Shown: one piece after another, positions 16,857 through 27,106 of the stretch
How the letters are laid out: each line of letters opens with the position of its first letter
How positions within the stretch are numbered: position 1 is the first letter of the stretch
Source of the DNA: Sphingobacteriales bacterium
GTDB taxonomy: Bacteria; Bacteroidota; Bacteroidia; Chitinophagales; CAIOSU01
Direction: 5' to 3'
Length of the DNA stretch: 64,000 nucleotides
NCBI GenBank assembly: GCA_027486795.1
Contig: JAIXOI010000035.1
Span: forward strand, 1 to 64,000
Notes under the pieces: generated by a model
Databases searched by the model: none
Told to the model about the DNA's origin: nothing
The model's input: the letters and a program-made list of their open reading frames with translations, nothing else
Made by a program: the position numbers and the translations under genes

Positions 16857-17285
16857 TTGGCAGACTATGAGCGACCGATAGAGATTAAAAAATCTGAAAT
16901 GACATATCTTGAGGCACACGGTTATTTTGCCAGCAGTTTGGATAGTATATTCTATTCAATCAAGCACAATTTGGTGCCCAAAGTTAAGGTGGTTAAGAAA
17001 CCCAATTTGCAAGAGAAGGACAGCGCTGCTGATGTAGTTTACAATTCTAACAATGAGTTATTGTTAGAAAAAACTCTGAACAACCAAAATAGTTCCGCTG
17101 ATTCTGTGAGGAATATACTTGATACTGACGGAAAACTATTTAATGTTAATGTGTCATACATTAAGGAGTTTGTAAATAGTATTCCAAATTTTGAAACGTT
17201 TTCTGCCATGAAAGAACATATGTTAGATCGAGTTCAAAAATATGTAAGTTTAGATGGCAGGTTCATTGTTAGAAGCAAGATATGA
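16857..17285 (+). CDS. Hypothetical protein upstream of DUF3822
   Basis: The 142-residue product matches no family I know. It is hydrophilic, without signal peptide or membrane segment, and rich in Asn, Ser and Lys (SAADVVYNSNNELLLEKTLNNQNSSADSV). Its stop overlaps the DUF3822 start as ATGA, indicating translational coupling and a real coding region. The frame begins at TTG 16857; the first ATG is at 16899 (MTYLEAHGYF), giving 128 residues, and either is possible. Being co-transcribed with DUF3822, rsmD and coaD suggests a housekeeping context rather than an acquired one. Confidence 0.65.
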   Translation: MADYERPIEIKKSEMTYLEAHGYFASSLDSIFYSIKHNLVPKVKVVKKPNLQEKDSAADVVYNSNNELLLEKTLNNQNSSADSVRNILDTDGKLFNVNVSYIKEFVNSIPNFETFSAMKEHMLDRVQKYVSLDGRFIVRSKI

Positions 17286-19234: not shown

Positions 19235-19589
19235 AAACCAAATACGAAACCATTGTTTTCCGCTCAAGCTATTTTAAAAATCACACTTTACTAGGTCAAT
19301 AGTCATCAACAAAGACTCTATCAACTCGATAAAAATTACTTTTACTTAGTCGTCATGAAATTGGGCAGCTAAAACTAGTTCAATTTTTAAGTCGAATTGG
19401 TTGCCTCCAGTTTAAATTATAGTCCATTTGGCAGTTAATTATCTCGCCATCAGGTTAATCCATTAAATTCGGAACATCGTTTCCGCTTATAGCAAGGCTG
19501 GAAGGTAGTTATAGTAAAAATCCGTAGTACCCCGTACATACATGCCGGCAAACATTATCTATTTTTGAATTTACAACTACAAACCTACT
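19235..19589. other. Intergenic region before the FHA-protease operon
   Basis: This 355-nt AT-rich stretch holds no open frame that looks coding, no clear hairpin terminator after coaD and no repeat that I can see. The only signal is the promoter box near its right end. Confidence 0.6.
19560..19567 (+). promoter_or_regulatory. -7 box for the FHA-kinase-protease operon
   Basis: TATTTTTG is a perfect TAnnTTTG match 22 nt before the ATG at 19590, which leaves a leader of roughly 17 nt. No TTTG is present at the ideal upstream distance, so an alternative sigma factor or activator may be involved. Confidence 0.45.
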
Positions 19590-21104
19590 ATGGCAGCAAA
19601 AGTAACCAAGGCATTAACCACAGGCATGAAGGTACTGGGTGGTGGCAATGTATCAGCGTACACGCTCGAACACTTAAGCAACAGCCGCAAGCATCCTGCA
19701 GGCTCTTTCGAAACTATAATTATACCGTATATTGAGCTAGGTCGCGATGGCTCAAATGCCGTTAGTTTTGGCGACGATATGGCCACTGTTAGCCGCAAAC
19801 ATGCAGCTATTGAGCGTAAGGGAGACAATGTGGTTATCAAAAACCTATCGACCAGCAACCCTACATTGGTAAACGGGCGACCAGTAAAAAACGAGTATTT
19901 CCTGAACAATGGCGACGAGATACAACTTTCTTTAGAAGGTCCGCGCATGCGATTCAACCTTTCAGCTTCGGGTACCGCCAAAATGGGTGTTACAAGGCGC
20001 ATGAATTTGGTGATGCAACAAGCCGTTCGACCTTATAGGGCTGCAGTTGCAGGATTGGCCGCGATGATAATATTAATTACGGGGGTAGGCGGCTTTTTAA
20101 CCTATACTCAAATAACTCACCTTACAGCAAAAAATGATGAGCTGGTTGTCAAAACTGACTCAATACTCAAAGCGAGCGATGTAGCCAAAAATGAGTTGTT
20201 GGCTACTATTGATAACATGAAGAAAACGAATAACGATGCATTAGAAAAACTATCGAAAAACAATGCTTCGTTAACTGGTAAGCTGAACAACCTAAGCGCA
20301 CAAAACCTACAGTTGAGGGCAGATGTTACTGTATTAGCCACAACCCCGAAAAATAGTAATGAAGAGCTAGCCGAGGCATATGACAACTTGAAAAACCATG
20401 TTTATTATCTTGAAGTAGTTGAGTTTCAGTTGCAATATCCTGATGGCTCAGTGGAAGATGTAGCGATGGGATGGACAGGCACTGGATTTATGCTCAAGGA
20501 TGGTAGGTTTGTAACCGCGAGGCATTGCGTGCAAGGATGGCGTTTTGGTACCGAAGAAAATGACATTATCCTCAACTCGTTGGAACAAGCAGGTGTTAAA
20601 TTCAATGTAAAATTCCGCTGTACCTCTCCATCGCAGCAGCTTACCTTTATGTACAAGGATTTTAAAGTAAATGATTCGCAAGACGAAAAAGTTAACCTTG
20701 CTGACTATGATATGGACGGTTTTATTAAGCTAGCTGCGCTTGACCGTTACGATTGGGCCTATGTGAGTACTTCCAATACAGATGGACTAATGTTTGACGA
20801 TGAGTTGTCAAAATCGTTGAAAGCTGGTTCTAAAGTTTTTGCACTTGGCTTTACCGAAGGGTTTGGCGGTAGCGATAACAGTTCAAGCGTATCGCCAATG
20901 CTGGGCGAAGCTACTGTTGGGCAAAGCGGATTGACCAAAGATGGAAACATAAGCGTAACCAGCAAAGGTTGGGGCGCAGGTAACTCAGGTGGCCCGGTAT
21001 TAACCAAAGCCAAAGATGGCTTTAAAGTAGTAGGTATTGTTTCTTGGGGCCCGCATATTAAAGGCGATATTGGTTTCCTAGTTCCAGTAGCAGAGGTAAA
21101 GTAG
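19590..21104 (+). CDS. FHA domain - membrane helix - trypsin-like protease fusion, copy 1
   Basis: The 504-residue protein has an N-terminal FHA domain (about 23-125) with the phosphothreonine-binding residues GRD (51-53), SRKH (68-71) and TLVNGRPV. One membrane helix follows (about 151-172), then a coiled-coil stretch (about 180-250). A trypsin-like serine protease domain (about 268-504) carries His312 (VTARHCVQGW), Asp388 (DRYDWAYV) and Ser466 (AGNSGGPV). With no signal peptide and a positively charged segment before the helix (RPYR), the FHA part should be cytoplasmic and the protease periplasmic. This would couple recognition of a phosphorylated partner inside the cell to proteolysis outside. 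It is followed by a close paralogue after 73 nt. Confidence 0.9.
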   Translation: MAAKVTKALTTGMKVLGGGNVSAYTLEHLSNSRKHPAGSFETIIIPYIELGRDGSNAVSFGDDMATVSRKHAAIERKGDNVVIKNLSTSNPTLVNGRPVKNEYFLNNGDEIQLSLEGPRMRFNLSASGTAKMGVTRRMNLVMQQAVRPYRAAVAGLAAMIILITGVGGFLTYTQITHLTAKNDELVVKTDSILKASDVAKNELLATIDNMKKTNNDALEKLSKNNASLTGKLNNLSAQNLQLRADVTVLATTPKNSNEELAEAYDNLKNHVYYLEVVEFQLQYPDGSVEDVAMGWTGTGFMLKDGRFVTARHCVQGWRFGTEENDIILNSLEQAGVKFNVKFRCTSPSQQLTFMYKDFKVNDSQDEKVNLADYDMDGFIKLAALDRYDWAYVSTSNTDGLMFDDELSKSLKAGSKVFALGFTEGFGGSDNSSSVSPMLGEATVGQSGLTKDGNISVTSKGWGAGNSGGPVLTKAKDGFKVVGIVSWGPHIKGDIGFLVPVAEVK

Positions 21105-21177
21105 CAAATGTAAAATGGGCAAAGTCCGTTTTGGTAATCCTTGTGTATTTTTCATAGCATAACAAAATTAACCTAAC

Positions 21178-22707
21178 ATGGCAGCTAGAGTAACAAAAGC
21201 TTTAACCACAGGTATGAAAGTGCTTGGTGGTGCTAATGTACCAGCATACACATTGGAGCATTTAACCACCACCCGCAAACATCCATCGGGTACTTTTGAG
21301 ACTATTGTAGTGCCTTATATTGAGTTGGGCCGCGATAGTAGTTGTGCCATAACATACGGCGACGAGATAAGCACCGTGAGCAGACGACACGCCGCAATTG
21401 AGCGAAATGGCAACGATGTTGTTATAAAGAACCTAAGCACTACCAATCCAACATTGGTAAATGGCAGGCCAGTAAAGAACCAATACTTTCTTAATAATGG
21501 CGATGAAATTCAGCTATCGGTTGAAGGTCCTCGCTTACGTTATAATGTAACTTCCACAGGCACGGCCAAAATGGGCGTAACCCAACGGATGAACTTGGTT
21601 ATGAACCAAGCTGTTCGCCCGTATCGTGCAGCTGTTGCCGGTTTAGCTACCCTGGTTGTGCTGGTGGGCGCTGTTGGGGCTTTCTTTATCTTCCGTCAGA
21701 GTCAAGATATTTCAACGTTGGCTGATAATAACTTGAAATTGCAAATGCAGGCAGATTCATTGCTTGTGGAGCAGCGAAAAGCAAAGGAAGAGTTTGCGGC
21801 ATCGGTAGAAGCTGTTAAAACGCAGAGCATGGAGGACATGAAGCGGCTAAAAAGCGAGAATGCCAGTCTAGCTAGTTTGGTGAAAAACCTTGGAGACCAG
21901 AACCGCCAGATAATGGATGATGTAAAGGTTATCGGTACGGCACCAGCTGGCGGCGGGCAAGAGCTTTCGGCTGTGTATGATGCCGTTAAAGAGAATGTAT
22001 ATTTCATGAGCGTAAGTAAGTTTGAACTTGATTACGGTGGAGGGCAAACGGAAGAAATTGATTTCGGCTGGACATGCACCGGTTTTGTAGTAAGCGATGG
22101 CAAATTTGTAACAGCTAGGCACTGCGTGCAGGGATGGAGATTTTTGGGTGCAGACTCTCCCGAGGCCATGATATTGTTGAATTCGTTGGAGCAGGAGGGA
22201 GTAAAATTCAATATCGTTATCGATTGTACTTCGCCATCAAACAGTTTTCAGATAACCTACAACGATGCTAAGCTCAATGACCGAAACGATGAGGTAATAA
22301 CTGGGGAAGATGGCGATGGAAACCCTATTACGGTAAAAATGGCAACACTTGACCGCGACGATTGGGCATATGTTCCAACAGGCCGCAGTTCTTCCTTGCA
22401 ATTTGATGCTGCTCTATCAAAAAATCTTAAGGCTGGCGATAAAGTGATGGTGCTTGGCTATTCTTACGGATTGGGTGGCAGCGCTAATAGCTCCGATGTC
22501 GCTCCTTTGCTCTCCGAATCGACAGTAGCTCAAAATGGGGTGAATCCTGAAGGTTCAATCAGCCTAACAAATAGAAATTTTGGGCAGGGTAATTCGGGAG
22601 GTCCCGTTTTAATAAAAACCGCCGATGGGTATAAGGCAATTGGCATAGTTTCTGCTGGCATGGGAGCCGAAATCGGCTTTATAGTGCCGATAGGAGAGCT
22701 TAAGTAA
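21178..22707 (+). CDS. FHA domain - membrane helix - trypsin-like protease fusion, copy 2
   Basis: The 509-residue paralogue of the preceding gene has the same build: FHA domain with GRD (51-53) and SRRH (68-71), membrane helix (about 151-172), coiled coil (about 178-250) and protease domain. Likely catalytic residues are His315 (TARHCVQGW), Asp395 (DRDDWAYV) and Ser473 (QGNSGGPV). By hand count the first 150 residues share about 117 identities with copy 1, whereas the coiled coil and parts of the protease have diverged and this copy has a small insertion near 374-386 (TGEDGDGNPI). The pair therefore arose by tandem duplication with the FHA end held constant, and the proteases may have different targets or form a hetero-oligomer. 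Confidence 0.9.
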   Translation: MAARVTKALTTGMKVLGGANVPAYTLEHLTTTRKHPSGTFETIVVPYIELGRDSSCAITYGDEISTVSRRHAAIERNGNDVVIKNLSTTNPTLVNGRPVKNQYFLNNGDEIQLSVEGPRLRYNVTSTGTAKMGVTQRMNLVMNQAVRPYRAAVAGLATLVVLVGAVGAFFIFRQSQDISTLADNNLKLQMQADSLLVEQRKAKEEFAASVEAVKTQSMEDMKRLKSENASLASLVKNLGDQNRQIMDDVKVIGTAPAGGGQELSAVYDAVKENVYFMSVSKFELDYGGGQTEEIDFGWTCTGFVVSDGKFVTARHCVQGWRFLGADSPEAMILLNSLEQEGVKFNIVIDCTSPSNSFQITYNDAKLNDRNDEVITGEDGDGNPITVKMATLDRDDWAYVPTGRSSSLQFDAALSKNLKAGDKVMVLGYSYGLGGSANSSDVAPLLSESTVAQNGVNPEGSISLTNRNFGQGNSGGPVLIKTADGYKAIGIVSAGMGAEIGFIVPIGELK

Positions 22708-22722
22708 CCTATAAAAACAGCA

Positions 22723-23508
22723 ATGCAACGATTTATATTTTTATTGGCATTCACTTTCAGTTCACTTCTAAGCCATGCACAACCAGGCAAAGGGCTTGAT
22801 TTGAATTTGTTTAAGGATCGTAACCAAACCGTAAAAAACGCAGTTGCCCCAGGGTTGTTTCTAGTTCAGCAAAACTTTATTGCCGTTGATTCTGCAGGCC
22901 AGGAATATGGTTTCAACAACCAAGATGATTTTGGCACTATTTATTCTATCGGTATTAAAGTAAAAGAGGGCTTGCTGCTTCCGAGTACTTTTAACACCCC
23001 CGGTTTGCTTGATTCCAATTTTGAGCCATACCGAGCTGGTTACACTGCGCGTAATAGCAGTATAAAGACAAGGGGAATTGATAGTTTGAAGTATGACAAT
23101 ATAGACTTAGCGAGTTTTAACAATCAAGTACCCAGGATTAACCAAGCCAATGATGACGAGTATTTCGGAATTAAAGATTACAAAAGTGTAACGAATGGCA
23201 AAATGCTGCTTGTGTATGCTGATGACATAACTAAGCTAGACAAGGAAACTCTTAAGACCAACATCATACAAGTGGATGAGTTGGTTTGGGACGATAAGGG
23301 CTTTGCGCAGCCAAAAAATATTGTGATTGGTAATAAGACCTTAATTGGGGGCATATTTTTTTATGAAGAAGTAACTTTTGGTGCTGTAACTTTTGAGCCA
23401 GTGGCTTTTTTTGAAAATATTAACGGCGCATGGATACTTAAAGCGATAGACATAAAACAATCGCCAGGTGGTGGACTTAACCCAATTGATAAAAAGAAGA
23501 AGAAATAA
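22723..23508 (+). CDS. Secreted protein of unknown function in the FHA cluster
   Basis: The 261-residue product has a signal peptide (MQRFIFLLAFTFSSLLSHAQ) and no further membrane segment. The mature protein is rich in Asn, Asp and Lys and ends in a short Lys-rich tail (KKKKK). I recognise no domain. It starts 15 nt after the second FHA-protease and ends 8 nt before the PP2C gene, so it belongs to the same transcript. Located in the periplasm, it could be a substrate, inhibitor or activator of the adjacent protease domains. That role is inferred from position only. Confidence 0.75.
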   Translation: MQRFIFLLAFTFSSLLSHAQPGKGLDLNLFKDRNQTVKNAVAPGLFLVQQNFIAVDSAGQEYGFNNQDDFGTIYSIGIKVKEGLLLPSTFNTPGLLDSNFEPYRAGYTARNSSIKTRGIDSLKYDNIDLASFNNQVPRINQANDDEYFGIKDYKSVTNGKMLLVYADDITKLDKETLKTNIIQVDELVWDDKGFAQPKNIVIGNKTLIGGIFFYEEVTFGAVTFEPVAFFENINGAWILKAIDIKQSPGGGLNPIDKKKKK

Positions 23509-23516
23509 CCCAGCCT

Positions 23517-24908
23517 ATGAAAGTTGAAATCTTCGGTAGTACGGATGTTGGGCAGGTGCGCGACCATAATGAGGATAACTTTGTATTGTGCAAAGACCTA
23601 TCTAACCAAGATTGGACATATAAGCGCGACGAGCAGTTTGATTTAGGCGCATTAGGCGCAGTGTTGTTTGTTGCCGACGGCATGGGTGGCACCAATGCAG
23701 GCGAAGTGGCATCGGAAATTGCGCAAGAAAGTGTAGCAGAAGAGTTTAAAAAAGTCACAGCTTTGCCTGGCGACGACCAAGCAATATTGAGTTTTGTAAA
23801 GAAAGTTGTAGTAAAAGCCCACCAAAATATTGTTCAGCGCACCCACGAAGACCCAACTACTGCTGGTATGGGAACTACAGCAGTAGTTTGCTGGGTAGTA
23901 AACGAGAAAGCATACGTGGCATGGTCGGGCGATAGCCGAATGTATTTATACCGCGAAGGTTCAGAGTTTTACCCCATTACCGATGACCACTCCATTGTTT
24001 GGGAATTGGTAAAAAATGGTCAGCTAACTGCCGAAGAAGCCCGGTTGCATGAAAATAGCAACATTATCACCCAAAGTTTGGGTGATGAGGCCAGGGGCCC
24101 AAAGCCAGATGCCAAAATGGTGTCTTTGCAAAAAGGTGACAGGGTGCTGCTTTGCAGTGATGGGCTAAGTGGCATGGTAAGCGATAACATGCTTGGTGGA
24201 ATATTGAGTGCCCGATTGAGCACTGCTGAAACGTGTAAGGAGCTGATACAAGCTGCCAATGCAGCTGGCGGAACCGATAATATTACGGTATTGCTGCTCG
24301 ACGTAATTGAAGGTAAAGCAGGTGCCACAGTGAGCAGCAAGCCTAGCACTGGTATTAAAACGGCAGCATCTAATGGCGGGAGTTCACCAATCAATACCGT
24401 TGCATCAAAAGAAGGACCCAACAAAGGGCTGATAATTGGGGTGATAGTAGTATTGGCAATAATTGCAGCGGTGGTATTTTTTGTATTGAAACCAGGCCAA
24501 GGCGATGTTGGGCAAGATAGTAACGATACATTAGTAAACCCAATTGACACGCCTGCTTTGAACAATTCAGTTATTGAAACGCCCGCAAGTGTAATTGAAC
24601 CAACCCAAGTGAATGCACCAGCAACTAACACCACTAATAGCCAAACTAACAACACTGCACCCATTACACCCACTAAACCACCTGTAACAGGATCCAATAC
24701 TAATAGCGTTACTAATGGTGGCAATGAAAAACCGATAGATAACACTTCGCCAAAAACGACAGCCCCAAAAGACACCACAAAACCATCTGGAATAAACGTT
24801 AATTTACCGAAAGATACCGCCAACAATAATACCCCAGGTGGATTAACACCCCGTAAATCGGGACCAAACTTACCAAAAGGCGGCCTCAACCCTGATGGGG
24901 GCAAGTAA
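23517..24908 (+). CDS. Membrane-anchored PP2C-type Ser/Thr phosphatase
   Basis: The 463-residue protein has a PP2C domain (about 1-265) with all metal-binding motifs: RDHNEDN (15-21), DGMGG (54-58), SGDSRMY (137-143), SDGLSGMV (214-221) and GGTDNIT (251-257). A linker leads to one membrane helix (about 304-325). A Pro/Thr/Asn-rich tail of about 140 residues should lie outside the cytoplasm. The phosphatase domain would be cytosolic and remove phosphate from Ser/Thr sites placed by the nearby kinase. Bacterial signalling sets often pair PP2C with a Hanks-type kinase, as here. The function of the low-complexity tail is unknown; it could touch peptidoglycan or the secreted neighbour. Confidence 0.93.
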   Translation: MKVEIFGSTDVGQVRDHNEDNFVLCKDLSNQDWTYKRDEQFDLGALGAVLFVADGMGGTNAGEVASEIAQESVAEEFKKVTALPGDDQAILSFVKKVVVKAHQNIVQRTHEDPTTAGMGTTAVVCWVVNEKAYVAWSGDSRMYLYREGSEFYPITDDHSIVWELVKNGQLTAEEARLHENSNIITQSLGDEARGPKPDAKMVSLQKGDRVLLCSDGLSGMVSDNMLGGILSARLSTAETCKELIQAANAAGGTDNITVLLLDVIEGKAGATVSSKPSTGIKTAASNGGSSPINTVASKEGPNKGLIIGVIVVLAIIAAVVFFVLKPGQGDVGQDSNDTLVNPIDTPALNNSVIETPASVIEPTQVNAPATNTTNSQTNNTAPITPTKPPVTGSNTNSVTNGGNEKPIDNTSPKTTAPKDTTKPSGINVNLPKDTANNNTPGGLTPRKSGPNLPKGGLNPDGGK

Positions 24909-24949
24909 ATTAAATTGAAAACACAACTGAACCTACTAAACCAATAACT

Positions 24950-25768
24950 ATGATACGTTGCCAAGAATGTGGTTTTACCAATGAAGCGGATTCCAAGGTT
25001 TGTAAAAAATGCGGATCACAGTTAGCGGGTTCGGCCGGTAGTGGTGATTTAAGCGCCCCCAAGGGCAATGTAGGTGGTAGCAACCCTACCATGATTGGCG
25101 GTGCAGCTTCGGGCCCTGCTTGGGATAGTAATGATACCCCAGCGGCTGGCGGCGGCGGAGGTAGGTTGTCAAATCCTACTATCGTTGGTGGACGCTCAAA
25201 TATGCCCGCTTGGGATGAGAATAGCACCGGATCTTCAAACCTAATACCGCCTGCATCAGGAGGCCAAAATACCGCTGCCAGTAATGTAACCAAATGCCCA
25301 TCATGCGGTTTTTACCCGCTTCGTAATGAAGTTTCGGCGTCAAACCCTTGCCCTAATTGTGGCACAATTGGCGATGCGAAAGCAGCAGCTACAGCAGCCC
25401 CAGCGTATCAACCAGCTGCTAGCCATCAAATACAAAAAGCTGCTGGTGCTAGTAAAACCATGCGCCTAGGCGATTTGACCCCTGAAGAAGAGGCCAAGCC
25501 AGAGTTTAAATTGATTGAGGAGCGCAGCCAAAGCGTGAAAGAGTTTAACGGTGCAGAAGTATCAGTAAACCGTGACAACTTAGATGCTGGCAATATGAGT
25601 ATTTCTGGCCAAGAGCATGCCAGTTTTGTGTTTGAGGATGGCAAATGGTACTTAAATGATAAAAGCTCAAACGGCGCCACCTTTATTCAGGTAAATGGCA
25701 AAGTAGAACTAACAGAAGGGTCTAAGATATTAATGGGCAACCGTATTTATACCTTCCAAACCAAGTAA
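24950..25768 (+). CDS. Double zinc-ribbon FHA-domain protein
   Basis: The 272-residue soluble protein has two zinc-ribbon motifs, Cys4/Cys7/Cys18/Cys21 (CQECGF...CKKCGS) and Cys116/Cys119/Cys134/Cys137 (CPSCGF...CPNCGT). A C-terminal FHA-like domain (about 185-272) has VSVNRDN, SISGQEHASF and DKSSNGATF. The linker between the ribbons holds a repeated motif, SNPTMIGG...PAWD (44-59) and SNPTIVGG...PAWD (74-89), and a third Thr-centred site, KTMRLGDLTPEE (169-180), precedes the FHA domain. These threonines are candidate phospho-sites for the adjacent kinase, making this protein a possible adaptor. It sits between phosphatase and kinase genes with short spacers. Confidence 0.88.
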   Translation: MIRCQECGFTNEADSKVCKKCGSQLAGSAGSGDLSAPKGNVGGSNPTMIGGAASGPAWDSNDTPAAGGGGGRLSNPTIVGGRSNMPAWDENSTGSSNLIPPASGGQNTAASNVTKCPSCGFYPLRNEVSASNPCPNCGTIGDAKAAATAAPAYQPAASHQIQKAAGASKTMRLGDLTPEEEAKPEFKLIEERSQSVKEFNGAEVSVNRDNLDAGNMSISGQEHASFVFEDGKWYLNDKSSNGATFIQVNGKVELTEGSKILMGNRIYTFQTK

Positions 25769-25774
25769 AGCACA

Positions 25775-27106
25775 GTGAGCAGCGGCCCCTCATTTACTCC
25801 CGAAAAAGTTGATATCGTTCCTGGATATGTTTTTTCCAGTGAGCGTGCCTCGTATAAGGTTATAAAAGAGTTGGGAGAAGGTGGTTTTGGTAGCGTTTAC
25901 TTAGTAGAAGGGCAGGGGCGCAAATACGCGCTTAAGATTACCAAAATGTGGAATTTCCTGCCTCAAGAGCGACAAGAATACGCTAAGCGTTTTAGGCAAG
26001 AGTATGAGCACGGTAGCAATCTCGATTCGGAATTTGTGGTGCGCAGCTACGATTTTCACCATGTAGGTGGCAACCCGTATATGTTGATGGATCTTTGCCC
26101 TGGCGGTTCGTTGAGGGATAAGGTGGGCGAAAAGCTACCCAAAACCGAAATAAACCGTATTGCTTACGGAATATTAAAGGGTTTGGGCGTGTTGCACGCA
26201 AAAGGCATTATCCATCGCGATATAAAGCCGGAGAACATCCTTTTTAACGAAAACGGCAATACTGCACTGGCCGACTTTGGTATATCAGCATCTATTAAAA
26301 AGCGCCATACCATTACCAACTTTATGGGCCATGCCAAGCAAGTTTTTGCTACAGGCACTTATTCGCCACCAGAACAAAGTGACCCTACCAAGGCATTTAA
26401 AGTAATGGGCAACACCAATGATATTTATGCCTTTGGGGTAGTAATGTATGAATTGCTCACTGGCGGCACACTGCCCTATGGCGATTTTGACGATTACATT
26501 GCCGACATGGCCGGATATGAAGCCAGAAAGAAACTTGGCAATTGGGACCGCAGTATATTAGAGCGCTCAGTTAATGATAGAATGTGGATTGAGGTTATAG
26601 ATAAATGCCTTCGCCCGGAAGCAACTGAACGTTACCAATTTGCACAAGATATAATAGATAAACTAAACCTCAGTGCTGGGTACTCAGTACTTCGCAAAGA
26701 GCCCATTCAAGTTTTGCCACATCACCAATGGTTGTTTAAAGTGATGAATGGCGACGAGATAGGTAGGACCTATAATTTATCGAACTTATTAAGGTTACAA
26801 GGTAAAAAACTACTTACCATAGGTTGGTTCAATGCTGATAGTCCTTTTACCAACGATATCGGTATTATGGAGCAATACACCAATTACGTTTCCAATTTCC
26901 ATGCTACCATAGAGTACGATGCACCAAGCAACTACTGGTATATACGCGACGGGCAGTGGCGCAACAAAGAGGGTGTGCCAGGGTGGTACCGTTCTACCAA
27001 TGGCGTATTGGTAAATTCTATGCCTATTGATGACCGTGGCATAATGCTTCAGCCTGATGATATCATCACCATCGGCGATACTACTATCCAAGTAAGTATT
27101 CAGTAG
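25775..27106 (+). CDS. Hanks-type Ser/Thr protein kinase with C-terminal FHA domain
   Basis: The 443-residue soluble protein has a full kinase domain (about 22-300): GEGGFG (34-39), Lys54, catalytic loop HRDIKPEN (147-154), DFG (167-169) and an APE equivalent PPE (198-200). A C-terminal FHA-like domain (about 315-443) keeps the S-x-x-H core (SNFHATI) but has IGW in place of the usual GR, so phosphopeptide binding may be weaker or different. No membrane helix is present, unlike PknB-type sensor kinases, so input probably comes from a partner such as the membrane FHA-proteases. The start is GTG at 25775, 6 nt after the previous stop. It closes the cluster. Confidence 0.93.
   Translation: MSSGPSFTPEKVDIVPGYVFSSERASYKVIKELGEGGFGSVYLVEGQGRKYALKITKMWNFLPQERQEYAKRFRQEYEHGSNLDSEFVVRSYDFHHVGGNPYMLMDLCPGGSLRDKVGEKLPKTEINRIAYGILKGLGVLHAKGIIHRDIKPENILFNENGNTALADFGISASIKKRHTITNFMGHAKQVFATGTYSPPEQSDPTKAFKVMGNTNDIYAFGVVMYELLTGGTLPYGDFDDYIADMAGYEARKKLGNWDRSILERSVNDRMWIEVIDKCLRPEATERYQFAQDIIDKLNLSAGYSVLRKEPIQVLPHHQWLFKVMNGDEIGRTYNLSNLLRLQGKKLLTIGWFNADSPFTNDIGIMEQYTNYVSNFHATIEYDAPSNYWYIRDGQWRNKEGVPGWYRSTNGVLVNSMPIDDRGIMLQPDDIITIGDTTIQVSIQ

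Follow-up and report, generated by a model that had tools for sequence, protein, structure and literature searches.

Six consecutive plus-strand genes of a Sphingobacteriales bacterium encode what we read as a self-contained, co-inherited trans-membrane Ser/Thr-phosphorylation module, which would exert inside-out control over a membrane-anchored protease; we give this reading an even chance. The genes occupy positions 19590-27106 of the window, i.e. the whole 64,000-nucleotide stretch of contig JAIXOI010000035.1 that was analyzed. To judge by their sequences, the products include an active-looking kinase (KIN), a PP2C phosphatase that likewise looks active and is tethered to the membrane, a soluble adaptor (ZF), and two proteins (FT1 and FT2) that join a canonical FHA domain to a protease domain with an intact catalytic triad. 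That the six genes form one system, as had been proposed from gene order, is well supported by their recurrence in other families and in another class, by the co-occurrence of FT and KIN, by a second chromosomal site within the genus, and by congruent gene trees.

Organization and genomic setting of the island

The intergenic gaps of the island are 73, 15, 8, 41 and 6 nt. The sequence-only reading had correctly given the strand, the order and gaps of about 6-73 nt; its count of seven genes has to be lowered to six, the number to which its own gene list likewise adds up. The leader between coaD and FT1 (19235..19589, plus strand) is a probable promoter region, with one TAnnTTTG-like element at 19560 that is a consensus match only. 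The island is flanked by coaD and rsmD on one side and an aldehyde dehydrogenase gene on the other. All four Pfam FHA matches of the 3.9 Mb window genome (G000) fall inside it, and besides KIN one further Ser/Thr kinase in this genome scores above the Pfam cut-off. Counted where dS is unsaturated, dN/dS across the island is 0.02-0.12, and the reading frames are therefore under purifying selection. Elsewhere in the window, a 142-aa ORF (16857-17285), located upstream of the gene for the DUF3822 protein, is fast-diverging among members of the genus: its identity is 82% in G003 and 41% in G004, as against 88-99% for rsmD and coaD in the same genomes.

The FT proteins

FT1 (19590..21104, plus strand) consists of a cytosolic FHA domain (residues 49-113), one TM helix at about 152-170, a coiled coil and a trypsin-like protease domain. 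FT2 (21178..22707, plus strand) is its paralogue, with 57% identity and the identical architecture. The Pfam matches for FT1 and FT2 (FHA, E 3e-14 and 3e-15; Trypsin, E 4e-9 and 2e-10) bear out the earlier description of two transmembrane FHA-protease fusions. Both FHA domains retain the canonical phosphopeptide-binding residues, namely GR, SR[RK]H and N90. Their best PDB matches are GarA and OdhI, with the best alignment to GarA, a known phosphothreonine reader. Unlike FT, GarA is a small, soluble regulator of metabolism.

The protease domain (Pfam PF00089/PF13365) carries a GNSGGP motif in both window copies, and in FT2 the triad is formed by H315, D395 and S473. Among FT homologues, 22/22 have an intact His-Asp-Ser triad, the GR and SRxH residues of the FHA domain and a single TM helix. 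By triad and Pfam family we assign the protease domain to the S1 chymotrypsin-like peptidases, with an apparently intact catalytic site. The AF2 model of FT2 is weak (pLDDT 48), and the Foldseek matches of this low-confidence model are Deg2/Deg9, urokinase (uPA) and Rv3671c (MarP) at E 1e-5 to 1e-4; the MarP NCBIfam model matches FT1 at E 0.056 only. A Lys/Arg specificity was considered and set aside: by eye, Asn or Gly stands six positions before the catalytic Ser, and the Asp of a trypsin-like S1 pocket is therefore not apparent. The topology was derived from hydropathy only: one hydrophobic helix is preceded by a stretch slightly richer in basic residues, and on this basis the protease domain is predicted to be extracytoplasmic. 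A cytosolic or catalytically dead protease, either of which would have spoken against the earlier proposal, is thus neither predicted by this topology nor suggested by the triad.

The phosphatase, the kinase, the adaptor and SEC

PP2C (23517..24908, plus strand) combines a cytosolic phosphatase domain, whose metal-site motifs are intact, with one TM helix at about 305-323 and a low-complexity extracytoplasmic tail. The Pfam domain and TM helix agree with its prior labelling as a membrane PP2C phosphatase. It scores 228 bits with the NCBIfam Stp1/IreP model (cut-off 230), with the TM helix and tail as extra elements. KIN (25775..27106, plus strand), which begins with a GTG start, is a soluble Ser/Thr kinase with the catalytic Lys, HRD and DFG motifs and an activation-loop Thr179. 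Pfam recovers both its kinase and its C-terminal FHA domain, as the sequence-only reading had stated. In this FHA domain GW replaces GR, placing Trp at the phosphate-contacting Arg, and many relatives show the same replacement.

ZF (24950..25768, plus strand) is a predicted soluble adaptor with a zinc-ribbon region, a linker bearing threonine motifs and a C-terminal FHA domain. Of the double zinc ribbon claimed for it, Pfam detects one N-terminal ribbon; the second is a mid-protein CxxC...CxxC pair seen in the alignment. Its FHA domain is divergent: it has NR, its SxxH loop is one residue longer, and its Pfam score of 21.5 bits barely exceeds the cut-off of 20.7. Hence, of the four phosphothreonine readers previously counted in the locus, two are canonical, those of FT1 and FT2, whereas the GW variant of KIN and the FHA domain of ZF depart from the canonical form.

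The ZF linker of the window contains the threonine motifs NPTMIGG, NPTIVGG and KTMRLGDL. A KTxx[ILVMF]-type motif occurs in the linkers of 8/12 lineages and a T[VMI]xG-type motif in 7/12; with the patterns chosen after inspection of the alignment, shuffled linkers give an expectation of 0.8 and 0.4 lineages, and 0/20,000 shuffles reach the observed number. FHA domains favor their ligands by a pT+3 rule, and the mostly aliphatic +3 residue of the ZF motifs fits it. The position of these motifs N-terminal to the FHA domain also recalls GarA, which has an N-terminal phosphosite. Both motif types, KTxx[IL] and T[VMI]xG, are conserved and likely serve as docking sites for FHA domains.

SEC (22723..23508, plus strand) is a predicted exported protein with a basic C-terminal tail and appears to be an optional part of the module. 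Its designation as a secreted protein stands on a signal-peptide-like N-terminus, a hydrophobic stretch ending in SHAQ that was judged by eye; SEC has no match in Pfam, NCBIfam or the PDB. Its AF2 model (pLDDT 36) offers no usable fold. The idea that SEC is a degenerate protease was ruled out: hhalign gives a probability of 1%, and it is unrelated to trypsin. SEC homologues adjoin FT in families f1 and f5 and in most f19 loci, and were not seen in the G650, G608, G240 and G133 loci.

Conservation, co-occurrence and transfer as a unit

Within the window genus, the gene order is identical in G003, G004 and G001, and in G002 as far as the contig reaches, with two to three FT copies per genome (three in G001). 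The island lies between coaD and the dehydrogenase gene in G000, G003 and G004, and G002 shows the dehydrogenase side; in G001 the same members occupy a different chromosomal site, with coaD on another contig. Beyond the genus, family f5 keeps the order FT-SEC-PP2C-ZF-KIN, with identities of 37-43% for FT, 53% for KIN and 23-24% for SEC. Family f19 has the permuted order ZF-KIN-(second kinase KIN2)-FT-SEC-PP2C. In another class of the phylum FT is found in G650, G608 and G975; the locus of the first reads KIN-ZF-PP2C-FT and that of the second PP2C-FT, with no ZF or FHA-kinase seen in the 20 kb examined in G608. One FT turns up at the same contig position and with the same score in bins from two genera (G907:C36:13647-15170 and G936:C574:13647-15170), which are probably the same contig binned twice.

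Among 398 genomes of the order, FT is present in 14 and KIN in 17, and 14/14 FT genomes have KIN (Fisher p = 3e-23, a value that overstates independence because the genomes are related; the sample includes five genomes of one genus, and FT spans 8 genera). The genes that the sequence-only reading placed in one system are thus conserved together, in fixed order across the genus and in related, partly permuted loci elsewhere. Of the three KIN-only genomes, two have KIN on contig fragments and the third (G300) has a locus of the form ZF-KIN-ExbD-like-MotA-PP2C-kinase; as this lacks FT, modules of this kind have other outputs as well. The trees of FT, KIN, PP2C and ZF share groupings against taxonomy (G385+G906, G139+G167, and G031/G650/window genus), put G650 close to f5 and the window genus although it belongs to the other class, and split the f19 members (Mantel r 0.71-0.91 between the genes). 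The gene trees agreeing with each other against taxonomy implies that the module has been inherited and transferred as a unit. A clean empty site was not found in comparison with G005 and G006, because G005 has a different gene after MATE-thioesterase-DUF3822-rsmD-coaD and G006 lacks synteny.

A motor pair beside related modules

In the f5, G650, G608 and G906 loci, FT is adjoined by genes for a protein of the MotA/TolQ/ExbB type and an ExbD-like protein with one TM helix. The latter has the architecture SFLDLLSGALGAVIILYIIVPK, followed by a coiled coil and then a variable extracytoplasmic domain, vWA or other (vWA in f5). The pair stands beside the kinase in G328 and in the FT-less G300. No close relative of the MotA protein was found in the window genus when its genomes were searched with the MotA/ExbB member, G004 giving a weak partial match only. 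The pair may represent an undescribed family of ion-driven motors, and it recalls ZorAB. It is encoded with kinase, PP2C and FHA genes at loci L028/L029, L055, L077, L078, L079 and L108.

Relationship to known phospho-signaling systems

Kinase-PP2C-FHA sets are familiar from the threonine phosphorylation pathway of T6SSs and from mycobacterial loci. The T6SS set PpkA-PppA-Fha likewise encodes a kinase, a PP2C and an FHA protein together and controls an envelope machine; in the island, by comparison, FHA is fused to a TM-protease and the kinase is soluble with an FHA domain of its own. Regulation of a T6SS by the island was ruled out for the window genome because TssC and TssD are absent from it, with a working positive control (G942); both are likewise absent from G001, G003, G004, G010 and G167. 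In G942 itself, which has TssC and TssD, relatives of the module's proteins, namely a ZF protein, a kinase and an FHA protein of 143 aa, are encoded (L110, G942:C81, 7031-9462) beside T6SS-like genes (TssE/TssF/TssK/PAAR-like, by eye); this related cassette may serve a T6SS.

The sequence-only reading did not know of a comparable protease-containing combination. We found no description of the module in the full-text literature searched, a coverage outside which most subscription papers and preprints lie. The fusion itself has a precedent in an FHA-FHA-trypsin protein of Bacteroides thetaiotaomicron (NP_811686.1), tabulated in 2008 (PMC2605481). As listed there, it resembles FT in having FHA N-terminal to a trypsin-like protease and differs in having two FHA domains.

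A proposed mechanism and its alternatives

Setting out from the observed anatomy and co-inheritance, we infer the phosphorylation, docking and gating, their direction and the substrate as follows. The proposed targets of KIN are threonines in the linker of ZF (KTMRLGDL, NPTIVGG) and possibly others in FT next to the membrane. When phosphorylated, these sites would be bound by the FHA domains on the cytosolic side of FT, and this docking might cluster or re-orient the FT coiled coils so as to switch the extracytoplasmic protease. Once switched, the protease would process envelope proteins, with SEC as the nearest candidate substrate, and the membrane PP2C would reset the state. In the relatives with a MotA/ExbB and ExbD-like pair, the switch is probably coupled to an ion-driven envelope motor.

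The strongest alternative, which we consider unlikely while still giving it appreciable weight, reverses the direction. Here FT would sense misfolded or foreign envelope proteins, like DegS/HtrA, and the kinase-phosphatase pair would read its state via FHA in an envelope-stress or surface-contact response. The Deg/HtrA-type fold matches are consistent with this. So, too, is a leaner sister type (type II) of operon. Its products are a kinase of about 560-617 aa, a short PP2C and a protein of FHA-TM-trypsin architecture; in several instances the adjacent genes encode an outer-membrane beta-barrel, a response-regulator-like protein and a further sensor-like protein. Several f19 loci additionally hold exported, lipoprotein-like genes. 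However, what FT places in the cytosol is a reader rather than an enzyme, KIN has no TM or sensor domain, and Pfam finds no PDZ domain in FT1 or FT2. MarP (Rv3671c) and DegS/HtrA, which like FT are membrane-anchored chymotrypsin-fold proteases outside the cytosol, lack FHA and have different gene partners.

The sister operons were seen at loci L034, L081, L082 and L083. Small lipoprotein-like proteins, with a Cys-containing N-terminal hydrophobic stretch followed by an 'INNxxxP/INGxxxP'-like motif, recur beside phospho-modules (L054:13470-14159, L051:6494-7189, L049:5585-6658 and L110:6306-7031); the L054 member has no Pfam match.

A second alternative, in our view improbable, would make FT mainly a structural scaffold. 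Its FHA domain would build a phospho-regulated trans-envelope complex, like GltG in Myxococcus gliding, with proteolysis secondary. The motor genes beside FT, or beside the kinase, lend themselves to this, and the Agl-Glt gliding machine does join a TolQR-like motor (AglRQS) with an FHA membrane protein, GltG (PMC3169522). Yet its published cluster table shows no kinase, PP2C or protease (PMC3169522), the window genus lacks such a motor, and the strict conservation of the triad argues that catalysis matters.

A defense role, in which invader sensing would lead through phosphorylation to toxic proteolysis or an ion motor, is the least probable of the three. One model for it is KKP (PfkA-PfkB-PfpC), a mostly prophage-borne kinase-phosphatase toxin-antitoxin system with a PP2C and two kinases, one bearing a cold-shock and the other an FHA domain (PMC11341870). 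A PP2C and a kinase with a C-terminal FHA domain are common to both; the island has one kinase, no cold-shock domain and housekeeping rather than prophage surroundings, and KKP lacks the protease and the zinc-ribbon/FHA adaptor. By Pfam, none of the six genes has the features of the other candidate model, the peptidase-bearing VMAP/iSTAND systems (MoxR AAA, vWA or a VMAP/iSTAND component). The patchy distribution (about 1-4% of genomes), the transfer as a unit between classes, the ZorAB-like pair and the presence of trypsin-type peptidases in conflict systems (PMC7159879) would suit defense, but the module has no DNA- or RNA-directed effector, KIN and FT2 had no plasmid match and FT none in the viral contigs searched, its PADLOC matches reflect generic domains, kinase, PP2C or trypsin (the identities mad6 and PD-T4-6 for the kinase being rejected as such), and the housekeeping flanks, low dN/dS and predicted outward-pointing protease all count against it.

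Implications

Returning to inside-out control, it is possible, at somewhat less than even chances, that these loci represent a new class of trans-envelope machine, in which Thr phosphorylation read by an FHA-TM-coiled-coil-protease gates proteolysis outside the cytosol, and which in several lineages includes a MotA/ExbB-ExbD-type motor. The module is compact, constitutes the sole FHA set of the window genome, and exists naturally in versions that have or lack the motor, carry one to three proteases, or have no protease; its logic is therefore amenable to testing. If the reading is true, reversible Thr phosphorylation controlling extracytoplasmic proteolysis would be a new output of bacterial eukaryotic-like kinases. 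The distantly related Bacteroidota between which the set travels probably own an undescribed device linking phosphorylation on the inside to a protease on the outside.
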